Positions 7,391 to 43,086 of a stretch of DNA of 43,147 nt are shown here, piece after piece. The position numbers and the translations under genes are program-made. Each line of letters opens with the position of its first letter. Within the stretch, counting starts at the first letter, position 1. Source of the stretch: a virus; the IMG/VR virus record IMGVR_UViG_3300042006_000118, positions 1 to 43,147 of that record; one strand, 5' to 3'. The notes beneath the pieces were generated by a model. It ran no database searches. It was given only the letters and a program-made list of their open reading frames with translations, and was not told where the DNA came from.

Positions 7391-8151
7391 ATCTGACCCC
7401 CTTGAATTTCAGCGGCGCTGAGATCCGCGTGATCACCGATGCCCAGGGTGAGCCATGGTTTGTCGCCAAGGATGTCGCCGATCTCCTCGAGTACTCGAAC
7501 CCTCATGAGGCGGTCCGCACGCATTGCAAGGGGGTGAGGGAAATCCTCATCCCTTCCGCAGGCGGCGACCAGATGACGAAAGTCATGCCTGAGCGGGATG
7601 TTTACCGACTAATCATGCGCTCGAAGATGCCCGCGGCAGAGGCATTCGAGGAGTGGGTCGTGGGTGAGGTATTGCCCAGCATTCGCAAGACGGGCAGTTA
7701 TCAGCAACCGATGACGCCAGGCGAGCAACTGTTGGCGCAGGCTCAAGCGGTGATCAACGTCGAACGCCAACAGGCGGAGCAGCAGGTCGCGCTGGCGCGG
7801 ATCGAGACGCGCGTGGCCAACGTAGAGCAGGTCCGTTACCTCGACTCAAGGCCGGCCGGTTTCGAATCCATGACCACCATCCGCGAGCGAATCAACTTGC
7901 GCCATGGCATCCCGCCGTGGGTGGTCAACGCCGTGATGCGCGATATCCCCGGCGCGCCTCTGCCGTTCGCCATGGTGCGCAGTGCCCACGCCGACGACGG
8001 CGCCCAGCCATACGCGATCTGGCCAACAGCCGACATCACCCGTCGCTTCGACCGGTTCGTTGCCGAGTGCACTTTCGTCACGGCCGAGCGAGCCACCCAC
8101 CCCGATATTCAGCAAGGCCGGTTCAAGCTGCGCCAGAGGACTTCCGCATGA
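7387..8151 (+). CDS. BRO-N antirepressor-like protein
   Basis: A 254-residue protein. Residues 5-105 form a BRO-N domain: IRVITDAQGEPWFVAKDVAD, then LLEYSNPHEAVRTHCKG, and EEWVVGEVLPSIRKTGSY near 97-114. BRO-N proteins of temperate phages include antirepressors. A coiled-coil-like middle (about 115-150) and a C-terminal domain (about 155-254) follow, with no clear KilA-C or ANT match. It may bind the prophage repressor or DNA and trigger the lytic switch, which would matter here because the repressor looks non-cleavable. It is the fourth gene of the early rightward operon and overlaps the next by 4 nt. Confidence 0.85.
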   Translation: MNLTPLNFSGAEIRVITDAQGEPWFVAKDVADLLEYSNPHEAVRTHCKGVREILIPSAGGDQMTKVMPERDVYRLIMRSKMPAAEAFEEWVVGEVLPSIRKTGSYQQPMTPGEQLLAQAQAVINVERQQAEQQVALARIETRVANVEQVRYLDSRPAGFESMTTIRERINLRHGIPPWVVNAVMRDIPGAPLPFAMVRSAHADDGAQPYAIWPTADITRRFDRFVAECTFVTAERATHPDIQQGRFKLRQRTSA

Positions 8152-8701: not shown

Positions 8702-9462
8702 ACACGGACACCCCGCGCAAATTTCAAGGCGTGTGGATCCCGGCCGAACGCTGGCTCGATCGCACGCTGTCGCCCAACGAGAAAGTCATGCTCGGTGAGA
8801 TTTCGAGTCTGGATACCGGTCCTCGCGGCTGTTACGCGACCAATGCTCACTTCGCCGCATTCTTCAATCTGTCGATTTCTCGGGTCTCCGAGATCATCAG
8901 CGGGCTCGTTGATAAGGGGCACTTGCGGGTGGATCTGATCCGCGAAGGAAAGCGTGTTGTCGAGCGACGACTTCGACTTGTCGACCCCTTCGGTTTTCCG
9001 AATACCCCTTCGGAAAACGCTGCGAACCCCTTCGGAAAAGGCGTCGAACCCCCTTCGGAAAACACGCAGGGGAGCAATACACACAGCAACAATACAAGGA
9101 GCACTAAAAACCATTCGGTATCTGGCGCAGGGAAAGTGCTTTCAGATGAAGGGTTTGAGCAGTTCTGGAAACTGTACCCCAAGAAGAAATCACGCAAGGA
9201 CGCCGCCAAGGCATGGGCGAAGCTGAAGCCCAACGATGACCTACGCGAGACCTTGATCACCGCTTTGGGCAGCCACTGCGTCTCCGAGGACTGGGCGAAG
9301 GATGGCGGGCGTTACATCCCGAACGCCGCGACCTGGCTCAACGGCGAGCGCTGGCATGACGAGCTCGCTCCGGCGACTGGGAAAACTTCGACCTTCACCA
9401 ACCTGCCGCAACACGAAGCAAACGCTTATCCGGAGGTGCCACATGGCCAAACCAATTTCTAA
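8698..9462 (+). CDS. Replication initiator, lambda O-like (HTH + phage replisome domain)
   Basis: A 254-residue protein. Residues 15-95 form a winged helix-turn-helix (NAHFAAFFNLSISRVSEIIS). A low-complexity linker (about 97-140) has four PFG/PSEN phrases, and a C-terminal domain (about 150-225) has FEQFWKLYPKKKSRKDAAKA and YIPNAATWLNGERWHDE, typical of phage replication O-like proteins that recruit the helicase loader. The linker DNA contains four iterons, so the gene probably carries the origin, as lambda O does. It is followed by DnaC-like and DnaB genes. ATG 8698 overlaps the upstream stop. Confidence 0.88.
   Translation: MNTDTPRKFQGVWIPAERWLDRTLSPNEKVMLGEISSLDTGPRGCYATNAHFAAFFNLSISRVSEIISGLVDKGHLRVDLIREGKRVVERRLRLVDPFGFPNTPSENAANPFGKGVEPPSENTQGSNTHSNNTRSTKNHSVSGAGKVLSDEGFEQFWKLYPKKKSRKDAAKAWAKLKPNDDLRETLITALGSHCVSEDWAKDGGRYIPNAATWLNGERWHDELAPATGKTSTFTNLPQHEANAYPEVPHGQTNF
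8985..9062. repeat. ori: Iterons inside the initiator gene, candidate replication origin
   Basis: CCCCTTCGG starts at 8985, 9005, 9027 and 9050, the last three extended to CCCCTTCGGAAAA. Spacings of 20, 22 and 23 bp approach two helical turns and are not multiples of three, so the repeats encode different residues (PFG or PSE). Selection is therefore on DNA, not protein. An A-rich stretch follows (9059-9115), suitable for unwinding. Confidence 0.75.
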
Positions 9463-21658: not shown

Positions 21659-21955
21659 ATGAAAAAGATTCGCGCGCTCCAACAGTTCTCCCATTTCAAC
21701 GGTGGCACCTTCGATCAGCACGAGGTTCGTCCGGTCGCTGACGACATTGCCGAAGCTCTCGTCGGCATGAAGCTGGCCGAGTATGTCGATGATGACGCAG
21801 AAGCCAAGGCGAAAGCCGAAGCAGACGCCAAGGCACTGGCCGAAGCGGAAGCCAAAGCCCGGGCTGAAGCCCTCGAAAAGGAAAAGGCTGACGCAGAAGC
21901 CAAGGCGAAAGCCGAAGCAGACGCCAAGGCGAAGGAAAAGGCCGCCAAAAAATGA
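21659..21955 (+). CDS. Ala/Glu/Lys-repeat protein behind capsid
   Basis: A 98-residue protein. The first 42 residues form a small folded-looking part ([20 protein letters not shown]), and the rest is a highly charged helical repeat of the type [14 protein letters not shown] 41-bp direct repeat (21794-21834 and 21890-21930) encodes it. Such proteins sit between capsid and connector genes in Pseudomonas phages; role unknown. The Shine-Dalgarno is poor. Confidence 0.7.
21794..21930. repeat. 41-bp direct repeat inside the Ala/Lys-repeat gene
   Basis: Identical 41-bp copies at 21794-21834 and 21890-21930, 96 bp apart (in frame). Unequal recombination could change the length of the helix. Confidence 0.85.
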
Positions 21956-37564: not shown

Positions 37565-38064
37565 GCGTGCCGTGGAGGTTGATCGGTGCGCTGGCGCTGG
37601 TGCTCGCCGGCTGCGGCAGCGCCTGGCAGTTTCAGGACTGGCGCTACGGCCGGCAGATCGCCGAGCAGGCCAGGCTCAACGGCGAGACGCTCAACCAGCT
37701 TGCGCAGGCCGGCGCCGATGCGCAGAAGGCTGAGCAGGACAAGCGACTCGCGCTCGAGCAGCGGCTGGCGGCCAGCGAACAAACACACTTCAGGAAATTG
37801 AGTGATGCCCAACGTGACCAGGATCGCCTGCGTGATCGCCTTGCCACTGCTGATCTGCGGCTGTCAGTCCTCATCGACGCGGATTCCGCCAGTGGCTGTG
37901 ACGTGCCAAAAGCCACCGGCGCCGGCGGCGTGGATCATGCAGCCGTACGAGCCAGACTTGACCCGGCGCATGCTCAACGAATTATCGCCATCACCGACAC
38001 CGGTGATCGTGGATTGATCGCGCTACAGGCATGCCAGGATTACGTCCGGTCGGTTTCTCGCTGA
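37561..38064 (+). CDS. Inner-membrane spanin Rz-like
   Basis: A 167-residue protein starting at GTG 37561, overlapping the endolysin stop. The N-terminal hydrophobic anchor (LIGALALVLAGCGSAWQF) is followed by a coiled coil (about 30-115) and a conserved end HAQRIIAITDTGDRGLIALQ. It spans the periplasm and, with the nested Rz1 lipoprotein, fuses the membranes in the last step of lysis. Two fragments of this gene recur downstream (39277-39386 and 40258-40291). Confidence 0.9.
   Translation: MSVPWRLIGALALVLAGCGSAWQFQDWRYGRQIAEQARLNGETLNQLAQAGADAQKAEQDKRLALEQRLAASEQTHFRKLSDAQRDQDRLRDRLATADLRLSVLIDADSASGCDVPKATGAGGVDHAAVRARLDPAHAQRIIAITDTGDRGLIALQACQDYVRSVSR
37805..38017 (+). CDS. Outer-membrane spanin Rz1-like lipoprotein, nested in Rz
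   Basis: A 70-residue protein in another frame inside Rz. The type II signal peptide ends in lipobox ICGC (Cys19-20 region) and the mature part is short and proline-rich (STRIPPVAVTCQKPPAPAAW), the hallmark of Rz1. AGGAAATTGAGTG precedes ATG 37805. Confidence 0.88.
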   Translation: MPNVTRIACVIALPLLICGCQSSSTRIPPVAVTCQKPPAPAAWIMQPYEPDLTRRMLNELSPSPTPVIVD

Positions 38065-39235: not shown

Positions 39236-39276
39236 TGGCTCACGCAGTGCTTCACTCTTCGTTGCATTCGCTGCAA

Positions 39277-39386
39277 CGCATGCATTACGAATGACCGCCA
39301 TTACCGCCACCGTCGACCGTGGACTAATCGCGCTTCAGGCGTGCCAGGATTACATCAAAACCCTCGCTTCCATGCCCCACGACTGA
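39277..39386 (+). pseudogene. 3' fragment of an Rz-like spanin gene
   Basis: In the Rz frame this reads HALRMTAITATVDRGLIALQ, then ACQDYIKTLASMPHD and a stop at 39384-39386. It aligns without gaps with the end of the intact Rz gene (37966-38046) and differs at roughly one base in five, so it comes from a related spanin, not a recent copy. No start or anchor precedes it. Confidence 0.82.
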
Positions 39387-39718: not shown

Positions 39719-40108
39719 TTAGTTTTTCTTCAGATCGCGGCGCTTACTTGAAGGTCTCTGCAGTATTTCATCTACCAGGTTGTAGAAGTCTGCGGATGTA
39801 TAACGCTTGTTGACGCCGGCCGACCTCATCGAATTCCGCGTAATCGCGCTCCGCATCTTTCGGGCTGGTTGGCTACCAAGATCCTCAGATGGTGCAGATA
39901 CCGAGCTCTTTTCTACCGCATGATTGGCGATATATGCATCTGCCCACTGGTCGAGTTCGTTGCGGTCGAATGCTACACCTTGCTTACCGATTGGAAACTC
40001 CCGCACATAAGGCCGGACGATTTTGTTGAAAACGTCGCGACTCATGCCGAGATAGCTCGGCGCCTGTTTGGCTCGGAGTATGCGGGGCTGAAAGGAGGCT
40101 TTATCCAT
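39719..40108 (-). CDS. HTH DNA-binding protein
   Basis: A 129-residue protein. Residues 8-62 resemble an AlpA/excisionase-type winged helix: ILRAKQAPSYLGMSRDVFNK and VAFDRNELDQWADAYIANHA. The rest (about 65-129) is basic and low-complexity. A regulatory role at the accessory end is plausible. Confidence 0.72.
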   Translation of the reverse strand: MDKASFQPRILRAKQAPSYLGMSRDVFNKIVRPYVREFPIGKQGVAFDRNELDQWADAYIANHAVEKSSVSAPSEDLGSQPARKMRSAITRNSMRSAGVNKRYTSADFYNLVDEILQRPSSKRRDLKKN

Positions 40109-40437
40109 GATCGCACGCTGTGTGTCGAGGGGGCGCGCGACCTCTACCGAACTCTGCAGCGAGCGCCGGTTTGGGCCGGGGTAGTAGAGGGCGCACCTAT
40201 CTAGAATGATAGCGCCATATCCAGTTTGGACGGCGTTGTCCGCCGAACGGACGACATGCGCATGCTCAACGAATAATCGCCATCACCGACATCTGAGACC
40301 TTGGACGGATCACTTTACGAGGATGTAAGGCATATTTAGCGCCTTTAGCAAAGCAGTGATGACGTTACAGAGCGCGAGTAAGTCTGACTCATCGAACACA
40401 TGTGCCTATAGCAATGTACCTGTATGGCTATCGCAAT
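40109..40437. other. Intergenic stretch with spanin fragment
   Basis: A 329-bp region without a credible gene. It contains a 34-bp spanin-gene fragment at 40258-40291 and, close to the stop of the cassette's last gene, a weak ATAGC/GCTAT inverted repeat without a T tract, so no convincing terminator. Nothing else is recognisable. Confidence 0.6.
40258..40291 (+). pseudogene. Internal fragment of the Rz-like spanin gene
   Basis: 34 bp matching 37966-37999 of the intact Rz gene with one mismatch (37983/40275). Similarity stops sharply on both sides, as at a recombination junction. Confidence 0.8.
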
Positions 40438-41004
40438 TCAGGGTGCGACGAGTCTGCTCATGTTGAACGCGTCATGAAATACACGCTGTATCGCAAGTTT
40501 TTCCGCAGGATCAGGCTTAATGACTACAAAAATGTCAGCATGTGCCTGGATAGTAGGCTCAGGAGTTGAGAACACACCAAATAGCCGTCTGCCATCCGTT
40601 GATTGCGCATTTCTAAAAACCCCGCACAACCCAACTACATAACCCATGTATTGCCGAGGTTTTGTTGGATTGCGCTCGTTGTGTACACGTATTTTTTCCC
40701 TTCCGAACTCATGTATTTTTTCGCTCGTGGTAAGCGATACGCGCTGGACAGAGATCCCCCTCTTGATCGCTTCAGAGAAAGCAATATCAGTGAACAGTCG
40801 AGTCGCAGGATTTACATGACTAGGACTTTCCATTGCGCGGGCTAGACCCTCATCATCAGGGATCGCGCTACTATTCTGGAAGATTTTATATAATTCAGCA
40901 GCCTGCAATTCGCCACCCTGATAACCGCAGGCGCTTAATTTTTTAAAGCGCTCTGCGGCTGGGGTAGACTCCAAGTCAAATATGTCTATCAGCCTTTGAG
41001 GCAT
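40438..41004 (-). CDS. Third gene of the attR cassette, unknown family
   Basis: A 188-residue protein. The N-terminal 70 residues are helical (FDLESTPAAERFKKLSACGY). The C-terminal half has a compact domain with YMGYVVGLCGVFRNAQSTDG and GVFSTPEPTIQAHADIFVVI, whose TxPxxxxHADI phrase I have seen in uncharacterised proteins of mobile elements, without a known function. It follows the GWDG gene by 9 nt in the same operon. Base composition is lower in GC than the phage body. Confidence 0.72.
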   Translation of the reverse strand: MPQRLIDIFDLESTPAAERFKKLSACGYQGGELQAAELYKIFQNSSAIPDDEGLARAMESPSHVNPATRLFTDIAFSEAIKRGISVQRVSLTTSEKIHEFGREKIRVHNERNPTKPRQYMGYVVGLCGVFRNAQSTDGRRLFGVFSTPEPTIQAHADIFVVIKPDPAEKLAIQRVFHDAFNMSRLVAP

Positions 41005-41013
41005 ATTTATTTC

Positions 41014-41658
41014 TCAAAGTGCTTCAATGATAGACATTAACTCTGCAAGCTTATTGTCTTCGTCCAAGAGGAATGTGTCTGAATTGCTTTGATTGGTTTC
41101 ACGATTGATGAAATAACTTACAATGTTGTTATTGCCATAAAACGCGATAGCAAAGTAATTAGTTCCATTATCGAACGCTAGGCTAGGAATGCCCTCAGGA
41201 TCCAGCATAGGAACAATCGTCGGGCAGTGTTCTACGTTGGTACTTACCAATCGGAGGAACGTATAGGCGTCATCCAAGCAAGGATGTGATGGAGCAATGG
41301 CGTCATCTCCATCCCAGCCGTCGCTCAAATCCCTGTAACCGTTGATAACGTCCAAGGCCTCGAGACAAAAGCCACGTAAGGGGATTTCATCATCTTCAAT
41401 CGTGACTAAATCATCATCAAAATCAAGATGACGGGTGAACTGGTAGTCTGAAGGCATCAATACTGCAGAGCCGATACTTTCCCAGCAGAAGTGTGGCTCA
41501 GCTACAGAGGAGTTCTTTAACAACTCCAAGCAAGTAGCAGCAGCCCCATCAAAAATAGATTTTTTCTTGATATTTTCATTGATGTACCTTTCTTCAACTT
41601 GTTTGTTGAAGAAAGAGTCAAATGTAAAAACTTCAGCGGTTCTCAGTGCTAAGCTCAT
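41014..41658 (-). CDS. Second gene of the attR cassette, GWDG-motif protein
   Basis: A 214-residue acidic protein. The central part has LSDGWDGDDAIAPSHPCLDD, then YTFLRLV, PTIVPMLDPEGIPSLAFDNG and YFAIAFYGNNNIVSYF. The W-D-G...P...A...FL...P.v.P...G pattern is shared by many short uncharacterised proteins in mobile elements. The first 80 residues are unassigned. It starts 3 nt after the stop of the first cassette gene and is followed closely by the third, indicating one operon. Confidence 0.75.
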   Translation of the reverse strand: MSLALRTAEVFTFDSFFNKQVEERYINENIKKKSIFDGAAATCLELLKNSSVAEPHFCWESIGSAVLMPSDYQFTRHLDFDDDLVTIEDDEIPLRGFCLEALDVINGYRDLSDGWDGDDAIAPSHPCLDDAYTFLRLVSTNVEHCPTIVPMLDPEGIPSLAFDNGTNYFAIAFYGNNNIVSYFINRETNQSNSDTFLLDEDNKLAELMSIIEAL

Positions 41659-41661
41659 ATA

Positions 41662-42477
41662 CTACCTCTGCTCTGGCTTTAAAAGGCCAATCCGTGCAGC
41701 CATTTCTTGAGAAAGTATGTCCGTTAATATATTTTTGTGTTCTGAGCGCAAATAGTTTGCTTTGTCAGAAAGTTCTTTGGCAAAGTTTTCAAATAAGTCA
41801 GGTTGCGTAATGTCCAAAATGTGGAATAGCTCTAAGGAGAAAAGATATTTGTCAACAGACTCCTCATCGTCACCGTTGATTATGTCTTCCCTTAATAAGC
41901 TATGCCCTGCATTTATGTTGTGAAGCAGGAGCGGGGCATCTGGCCCATTATCAGCGAAGTAACCCATGCTCGAGTGCCAAAAATCACTACGTTTCAAACA
42001 CATTTTTGCAATGTGTGATGTGTCAACATTGATTGCGCTCTCAATGTTCCAATCTATAACGTCAGATACGAATTCATCTTTATAGGACAAGACTAATCTG
42101 TCGATGAAGTGACCTGATTTTAGAAACGCTGTATGAGCAATACCCAAGCTAAAGCTCGCTTCAGCTAAGAAGCTAGCGAAGTTAGTATAAGTCCTGCTGG
42201 TGTACTGAGCGCGGGAGTTTATAATTTCGAACCGGCTCGTTTCTTTTTCTAAATGTTTGTTTAGAAAAAGATATCCTCTCACCTCTTCGCTAGGACTCTG
42301 TGCATCATGAGCTGCTTGGGTGCTCCTTCTCATGATTCGCCGAATTGGGAGCTTGACCTTTAGCCGGCTCGCTTCGTCCTTGATTACCGTCAAACCGACA
42401 TGGTCCACATCACCGCTGAACTCACACGTCAGGGATATTGATTCGATTGAGTGGGCGTCAAAAACGGGTTTGAGCAC
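41662..42477 (-). CDS. First gene of the attR cassette, TIGR04255-like protein
   Basis: A 271-residue protein from GTG 42477 (AAAGGA 8 nt upstream). The layout resembles the TIGR04255 family: an initial strand-rich part (SIESISLTCEFSGDVDHVGL), then GYLFLNKHLEKETSRFEIIN and YTNFASFLAEASFSLGIAH, and FIDRLVLSYKDEF, which fits the VxRLGLRYxN-like phrase of that family. TIGR04255 proteins are sporadically distributed and of unknown function. The gene is AT-rich relative to the phage and lies next to attR, the usual site for late-acquired cargo. Family assignment is tentative. Confidence 0.6.
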   Translation of the reverse strand: MLKPVFDAHSIESISLTCEFSGDVDHVGLTVIKDEASRLKVKLPIRRIMRRSTQAAHDAQSPSEEVRGYLFLNKHLEKETSRFEIINSRAQYTSRTYTNFASFLAEASFSLGIAHTAFLKSGHFIDRLVLSYKDEFVSDVIDWNIESAINVDTSHIAKMCLKRSDFWHSSMGYFADNGPDAPLLLHNINAGHSLLREDIINGDDEESVDKYLFSLELFHILDITQPDLFENFAKELSDKANYLRSEHKNILTDILSQEMAARIGLLKPEQR

Positions 42478-42697
42478 GGGAAAATCCTTTCAGTCACTAA
42501 ATTTACGTCTGCCTCCACGAGGAGGCTAGCACGTGCGCGTAGCATAGCATTACTAATGAGTCGCGAAGGAGGCGTTGCGTTCCGTGCGCACCCTTCAAGG
42601 CTGTCATAAAGCTGGCATTACCGAGCCATAGCAGCCCAAATGAGTACAAAAAAGGCACCTTCGCATTACGCTAGGTGCCTGATTTGTAAAGCTTATT
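42478..42697. other. Region between cargo cassette and attR
   Basis: 220 bp without a gene. It should contain the promoter of the leftward cassette; a weak candidate -10 (TATGCT read leftward, about 42545) is visible but has no good -35. The right part holds the terminator used by the tmRNA. Confidence 0.5.
42648..42680 (-). terminator. Phage-supplied terminator for the tmRNA
   Basis: AGGCACCT (42653-42660), a 12-nt loop and AGGTGCCT (42673-42680), with A residues at 42648-42652 (U tract when read leftward). It lies 17 nt past the tmRNA 3' end and replaces the host terminator displaced to 174-200. Confidence 0.78.
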
Positions 42698-42728
42698 TGG
42701 TGGAGCCGGGGGGATTTGAACCCCCGTC
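42698..42728. other. attR: attR core (31-bp direct repeat within tmRNA 3' end)
   Basis: Identical to 211-241. It is the distal end of the intact tmRNA gene including the T-arm and acceptor stem with encoded CCA. Confidence 0.93.
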
Positions 42729-43086
42729 CGCCAGTACTCCGCTGTCGGTACTACATGCGTAGCCGTGTCTATTAAGTTAACCCTCAGCGACCCGACGGGC
42801 AGGGTGCTTTGGGCGAGTTGTGTAAGTTTTAGCCGCTTCGTCCACAACGTACTGCACGGCGATTCTGTTCTATATGACAATCATTTCGGGTTTACAGACA
42901 TCCCCTGATGATTGCTGGACCCGAAGGTACCAGGAGCATTGTCAGCTGCAATTAAGCAGCGAGAGCAACACCGTATTGGTCGTCATTGGCAACTATAAGT
43001 AGTTGCAACAGTGGATTTACGACTTCTGTTACCAAGTCGGCATGCACCTAGAGTTTCGCAACCGGCGTCGAATCCTAAACGGCCCC
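42698..43086 (-). ncRNA. ssrA: Transfer-messenger RNA (tmRNA)
   Basis: A 389-nt gene whose 5' end reads GGGGCCGTTTAGGATTCGAC and whose 3' end reads GGCTCCACCA; the two ends pair as the tRNA-like acceptor stem. The tag-coding part is at 42990-42952 with resume codon GCC and reads ANDDQYGVALAA before the stop. It rescues stalled ribosomes in trans-translation together with SmpB. The prophage uses its 3' end as attachment site and leaves the gene intact. Confidence 0.95.

Follow-up and report, generated by a model that had tools for sequence, protein, structure and literature searches.

Three genes next to the right attachment site of a Pseudomonas prophage constitute a co-inherited, conserved and rare unit. 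Besides the window (the whole stretch of viral DNA analyzed here, 43,147 nucleotides), the trio was found in 11 other loci from Pseudomonas, other Pseudomonadota and other phages. In all 12 trios, that of the window included, the genes have one order and lie on one strand. Because unrelated bacteria and phages share this gene order, and known anti-phage genes are often nearby, the trio is probably an undescribed immune or conflict system. With moderate confidence, we favor the view that it is a conflict module that moves horizontally, rides as cargo in lysogens and most likely serves as an anti-phage system not described before; the defensive role is one that we infer by association.

A Three-Gene Operon Beside the Attachment Site of a Prophage

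The window contains a Pseudomonas prophage inserted at the 3' end of ssrA (tmRNA). Over 450 bp, the tmRNA gene and its flank match the genome of one Pseudomonas siliginis strain with 100% identity, and three other Pseudomonas genomes come close to this. HK97-type phages are about 72% identical to the capsid-portal region of the window. An array of 24-nt tandem repeats just past the capsid gene region (21793-21954) encodes a stretch rich in alanine, lysine and glutamate. The features referred to below are as follows.

211-241, no strand: attL core, 31-bp perfect direct repeat with 42698-42728
37966-38038, plus strand: 3'-terminal part of the Rz-like spanin gene and original D2 repeat (repeat search)
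39276-39348, plus strand: diverged Rz-tail duplicate at the boundary between cargo modules (repeat search, 79%)
40258-40330, plus strand: third Rz-tail copy, degraded, between the 3' end of the operon and module 2; only the first ~36 nt are closely alike
40438-41004, minus strand: gene 3 (P3), 188 amino acids, HADI-motif protein (ORF, profile, conservation)
41014-41658, minus strand: gene 2 (P2), 214 amino acids, variable N-terminus and C-terminal GWDG domain (ORF, profile)
41662-42477, minus strand: gene 1 (P1), 271 amino acids, protein placed in the TIGR04255 lineage (ORF, window-blind profile, relatives match TIGR04255)
42698-42728, no strand: attR core, the 3' end of ssrA, 31-bp perfect direct repeat 100% identical to 211-241
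42698-43086, minus strand: host tmRNA gene ssrA, the integration target (ARAGORN; tag ANDDQYGVALAA)

The first-pass annotation had described three leftward open reading frames of these lengths beside attR, and the coordinates were confirmed. The gaps are 3 nt between genes 1 and 2 and 9 nt between genes 2 and 3. Since the right att copy forms the tmRNA 3' end, the start of gene 1 is placed 221 bp from attR. The lower GC content proposed for the operon was also borne out: genes 1, 2 and 3 have a GC of 0.434, 0.426 and 0.474 (43, 43, and 47%) against a mean of 0.594 (59%; standard deviation 0.036) for 29 long ORFs of the phage core, and are thus foreign in composition. Gene 1 has a GTG start, and a Shine-Dalgarno sequence, AAGGA, was read directly from the sequence upstream of it at 42485-42489. 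A search of the sequence for a sigma-70 promoter or a terminator belonging to the operon gave no convincing candidate.

The three window genes are real genes, because profiles built only from other genomes, with the window sequences left out (window-blind profiles), pick exactly these three among the 872 stop-to-stop frames of the window. The E-values were 7.2e-22, 1.5e-13 and 1.8e-20 for genes 1, 2, and 3, while the next-best window frames reached 0.21, 1.7, and 3.4, respectively.

Searches of the three window proteins against Pfam and NCBIfam gave no match at a useful level, and PHROG gave no significant family match; a Pfam VWD match for gene 3 (0.26) and PHROG matches above 0.03 were taken as chance. 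PDB profile searches with all three families returned chance matches only and no related solved structure, and neither a catalytic nor a nucleic-acid-binding fold was recognized in genes 1, 2, or 3. AlphaFold2, run on alignments of three sequences, gave models too poor to use (mean pLDDT 47 for gene 3 and 33 for a relative of gene 1).

The Operon Lies in a Variable Cargo Slot

Sibling phages were found through their shared endolysin, and none of the 69 sibling loci carried the trio. A phage structural or regulatory role for the trio was dropped on account of this absence. In the sibling slots that were read, the cargo following the Rz gene consisted of HicA, an acyltransferase, a GGDEF protein and unknowns, the HicA toxin being found in the same slot of sibling phage L104. 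From this variation it follows that the region between the lysis genes and attR is a variable cargo slot.

The cargo modules of the window are bracketed by the three Rz tails listed above. A sibling phage (L102) was likewise found to have two Rz-tail copies (7931-8053 and 9268-9339), which are followed by different cargo. This suggests that the slot may grow, and its cargo be swapped, by recombination at duplicated tails of the Rz lysis gene. The module adjoining the operon contains a small AlpA/excisionase-like gene (39719-40108, minus strand; phrog_13517, 1.3e-32).

The Three Families Recur Together

Direct searches with the window proteins found no relatives of genes 1 and 3 in annotated phages, of any of the three in plasmids, of gene 1 in viral contigs or of gene 3 in genome contigs; relatives surfaced only through whole-genome searches. 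When 299 Pseudomonas genomes were searched with gene 3, a single real relative appeared (L023/L039); the genes before it encode a GWDG protein and a TIGR04255 protein, and an integrase adjoins. A weak match in another genome (G122, locus L024) was discarded as chance, the region reading as a betaine-aldehyde dehydrogenase. Two viral contigs (L026 and L027) contain the same trio with an integrase directly adjoining, and L025 holds a copy of the third gene. Widening the search with profiles added trios from other Pseudomonadota genomes (L037, L038, L045, L046, and L047) and from Pseudomonas (L075, L076, and L078), while the trio of L094 came from the TIGR04255 survey described below.

Across the 12 trios the distance between genes 1 and 2 ranged from -40 to +11 nt and that between genes 2 and 3 from -8 to +52 nt. 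Gene 3 was matched in 5 of the 299 Pseudomonas genomes, one of these matches being a remnant. The shared order, strand and spacing, the recovery by window-blind profiles and the low frequency therefore show that the unit is real, conserved and rare. Co-occurrence of the three families elsewhere was the main expectation on which the first-pass annotation could fail, and they were found together in unrelated elements as well as at loci that hold known defense genes. No description of the trio turned up in the literature, which was searched by family name and for three-gene systems.

Two further observations concern individual loci. A decayed fragment of gene 3 without genes 1 and 2 (L077, 8940-9419) is evidence of module loss. 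In two Pseudomonas genomes (L075, 9363-14403, and L076, 2025-7072) the trio has the same neighbors, an HTH protein, an ImmA/IrrE-like peptidase and a papain-like protease, which suggests a larger conserved island.

Known Defense Genes and Mobile Elements Near the Trio

Nine bacterial trio loci were available with larger flanks (L037, L038, L039, L045, L046, L047, L075, L076, and L078). Known defense genes were found within about 4 kb in four of the nine, as a raw count. A full-length Mokosh MkoA (E = 0) lies ~1.4 kb from the trio in L078, Mza-like genes and a cytosine methylase lie near it in L047, an OLD-like nuclease in L038, and a PtuA-like (Septu-like) ATPase ~4 kb away in L075. Three more of the nine have phage-like surroundings, namely an integrase in L039 and genes that we take, by sequence, to encode capsid- or tail-like proteins in L037 and L046. 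Defense genes and other accessory genes alike cluster in islands. A tendency of the trio toward mobile elements and known defense genes is thus partly shown and, being based on a raw proximity count, is an association and not proof.

Gene 1 Belongs to a Family That Is Not Tied to the Trio

Gene 1 had been described as TIGR04255-like. The kinship held, as most relatives match the model, but the window copy itself falls below detection, with no match at E ≤ 1 and a score below the curated cut-off of 30 bits. Six of eight aligned members of the gene 1 family match the model (best 3.5e-15), and the L023/L039 copy scores 35.4 bits, above the cut-off. Window gene 1 aligns lengthwise with such proteins, and it is by this full-length homology to proteins passing the cut-off that we place it in the TIGR04255 lineage.

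A survey found TIGR04255 genes in 18 of 200 sampled Pseudomonadota genomes (9%), at 19 loci. By our own count a GWDG protein follows the TIGR04255 gene in 6 of the 19, and the rest have different neighbors; one of the six (L088) has no visible third gene. The family is not tied to the trio, since many of its genes have other partners; most sampled members differ from window gene 1 in having downstream partners other than genes 2 and 3, and the model itself has no assigned function. A further recurrent TIGR04255 operon has another downstream pair of ~121-123 and 190-192 amino acids (L081, 1495-3162; L084, 541-2202).

A Core Pair of Genes 2 and 3 With a Varying Upstream Partner

The GWDG motif in gene 2 and the HADI domain in gene 3 had been recognized correctly from the sequence. 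In gene 3, residues E52, G83, S85, R88, and H155 are invariant in 14 of 14 homologues and G121 and R131 are near-invariant; the wider superfamily keeps R56, S85, V86, and H155. An N-terminal Cys-x-Cys element is present in most relatives of gene 3 and absent from the window copy. Assignment of gene 3 as an ADP-ribosyltransferase was dropped, the order of the conserved residues fitting no class known to us.

The pair of genes 2 and 3 was found without gene 1 in two loci (L035 and L036), between housekeeping genes and with no obvious defense context. In L067 it lies 3 nt downstream of an AbiLi-type AAA ATPase (3.1e-77), which occupies the position held by gene 1 in the window. The window operon differs in having no ATPase match, and gene 1 matched no PADLOC family. 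The ATPase and the GWDG-HADI pair of L067 (3853-6311) are a possible separate defense operon.

The third proteins of classical TIGR04255 trios (L079 and L087) are homologues of gene 3 (hhalign p = 1.5e-8, with p = 0.051 for the best of 29 window ORFs as control) and themselves match PDC-M32B with p = 2.3e-4 (hhalign). Direct profile comparison of gene 3 with PDC-M32B was not significant (p 0.15-0.42), so that the tie between the two is indirect, through the classical third proteins. The C-terminal ~110 amino acids of PDC-M32A weakly resemble the GWDG domain of gene 2 (E = 0.0085 for the window protein and 0.0035 for a relative), and the order A then B is the same. The match is partial, the alignment covering just ~107 C-terminal positions out of 375; PDC-M32 loci have no TIGR04255 gene, and their GWDG-like domain is fused to a ~260-amino-acid N-terminus. 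The surroundings of the PDC-M32A/B genes in L062 and L063 are, by sequence, presumably type I restriction-modification loci. In L064 (3967-5651) a tandem-repeat (TPR-like) protein has a GWDG-like domain fused to it, and a PDC-M32B gene comes next. PDC-M32 is a computational candidate, which PMC12429752 gives only as a PADLOC prediction.

Genes 2 and 3 are therefore a core pair that combines with varying upstream partners, and with TIGR04255 proteins found beside other partners, both halves are exchangeable modules. The description of the trio as a single fixed system does not hold in this respect.

Possible Function of the Trio

Our preferred reading of the individual genes as sensor, linker or inhibitor, and effector draws only on their modularity and conservation. 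Gene 1 would be an exchangeable input component that recognizes a trigger, because an AbiLi-type ATPase takes its place in L067. Gene 2, encoded directly before gene 3, may for that reason bridge genes 1 and 3 or restrain gene 3, and the invariant E, S, R, and H residues of gene 3 point to an effector. When a competing phage infects, the pair of genes 2 and 3 would be released or activated by gene 1 and would then prevent phage growth or halt the cell.

The trio could instead be cargo of another kind, a lysogenic-conversion or host-physiology function with a stress, surface or regulatory benefit, the nearby defense genes reflecting shared islands only. Non-defense acyltransferase and GGDEF proteins in the sibling slots and the position of the L035 and L036 pairs between housekeeping genes fit such a role, which we nevertheless consider rather unlikely: no enzyme, transport or surface family could be recognized, several independent loci adjoin defense genes, and the gene that replaces gene 1 in L067 encodes an AbiLi ATPase.

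A toxin-antitoxin or addiction module would stabilize the prophage and be selected for maintenance rather than phage exclusion, with gene 3 as toxin, gene 2 as antitoxin and gene 1 as accessory. Genes 2 and 3 are tightly coupled and also occur without gene 1, and HicA sits in the corresponding slot of L104, all of which agrees with this. However, the suggestion that the operon is typical of toxin-antitoxin cargo turned out to be only an analogy, as Pfam, NCBIfam, and PADLOC gave no match to a toxin or antitoxin family; the proteins are also larger than those of typical type II pairs, and all 12 trios retain gene 1. We regard an addiction module as unlikely, and note that roles in toxin-antitoxin and in defense are not mutually exclusive. 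A function in the phage life cycle (regulation, excision or narrow-sense superinfection immunity), for which the adjoining attR and the nearby AlpA/excisionase-like gene might speak, is highly improbable: it is largely refuted by the endolysin-sharing sibling loci, which lack all three genes, PHROG gave no significant match, and some bacterial loci with the trio show no evident phage genes.

Returning to defense as the preferred reading, the cargo part of the first-pass annotation stood, given the co-inherited unit, the foreign composition and the variable slot, while its defense part is one of association. The trio is best filed as a putative, undescribed partial-architecture relative of the candidate PDC-M32 and TIGR04255 loci, and as a member of no validated defense system. 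More tentatively, it may be one form of an unnamed broad immune class in which a constant GWDG-HADI pair is combined with an interchangeable upstream part (TIGR04255, AbiLi-type ATPase, PDC-M32A, or repeat proteins), the HADI protein being the effector, from a new family of enzymes or toxins marked by a conserved E-G-S-R-H signature. An E. coli operon with demonstrated defense activity also has three small genes, which encode an exotoxin A-like domain, an unknown protein and a SecB-like chaperone, and the systems from the screen behind it are mostly on mobile elements (PMC9519451). Between that operon and the window trio the analogy is one of layout alone.

If the trio is defensive, the TIGR04255 proteins would gain a role, and TIGR04255 and PDC-M32 would be joined in one modular scheme of a constant pair and a changeable first gene. 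Both could then be tested through a 2-kb operon already carried by a temperate phage. It would also be further evidence that prophages guard their hosts from cargo slots beside the attachment site.
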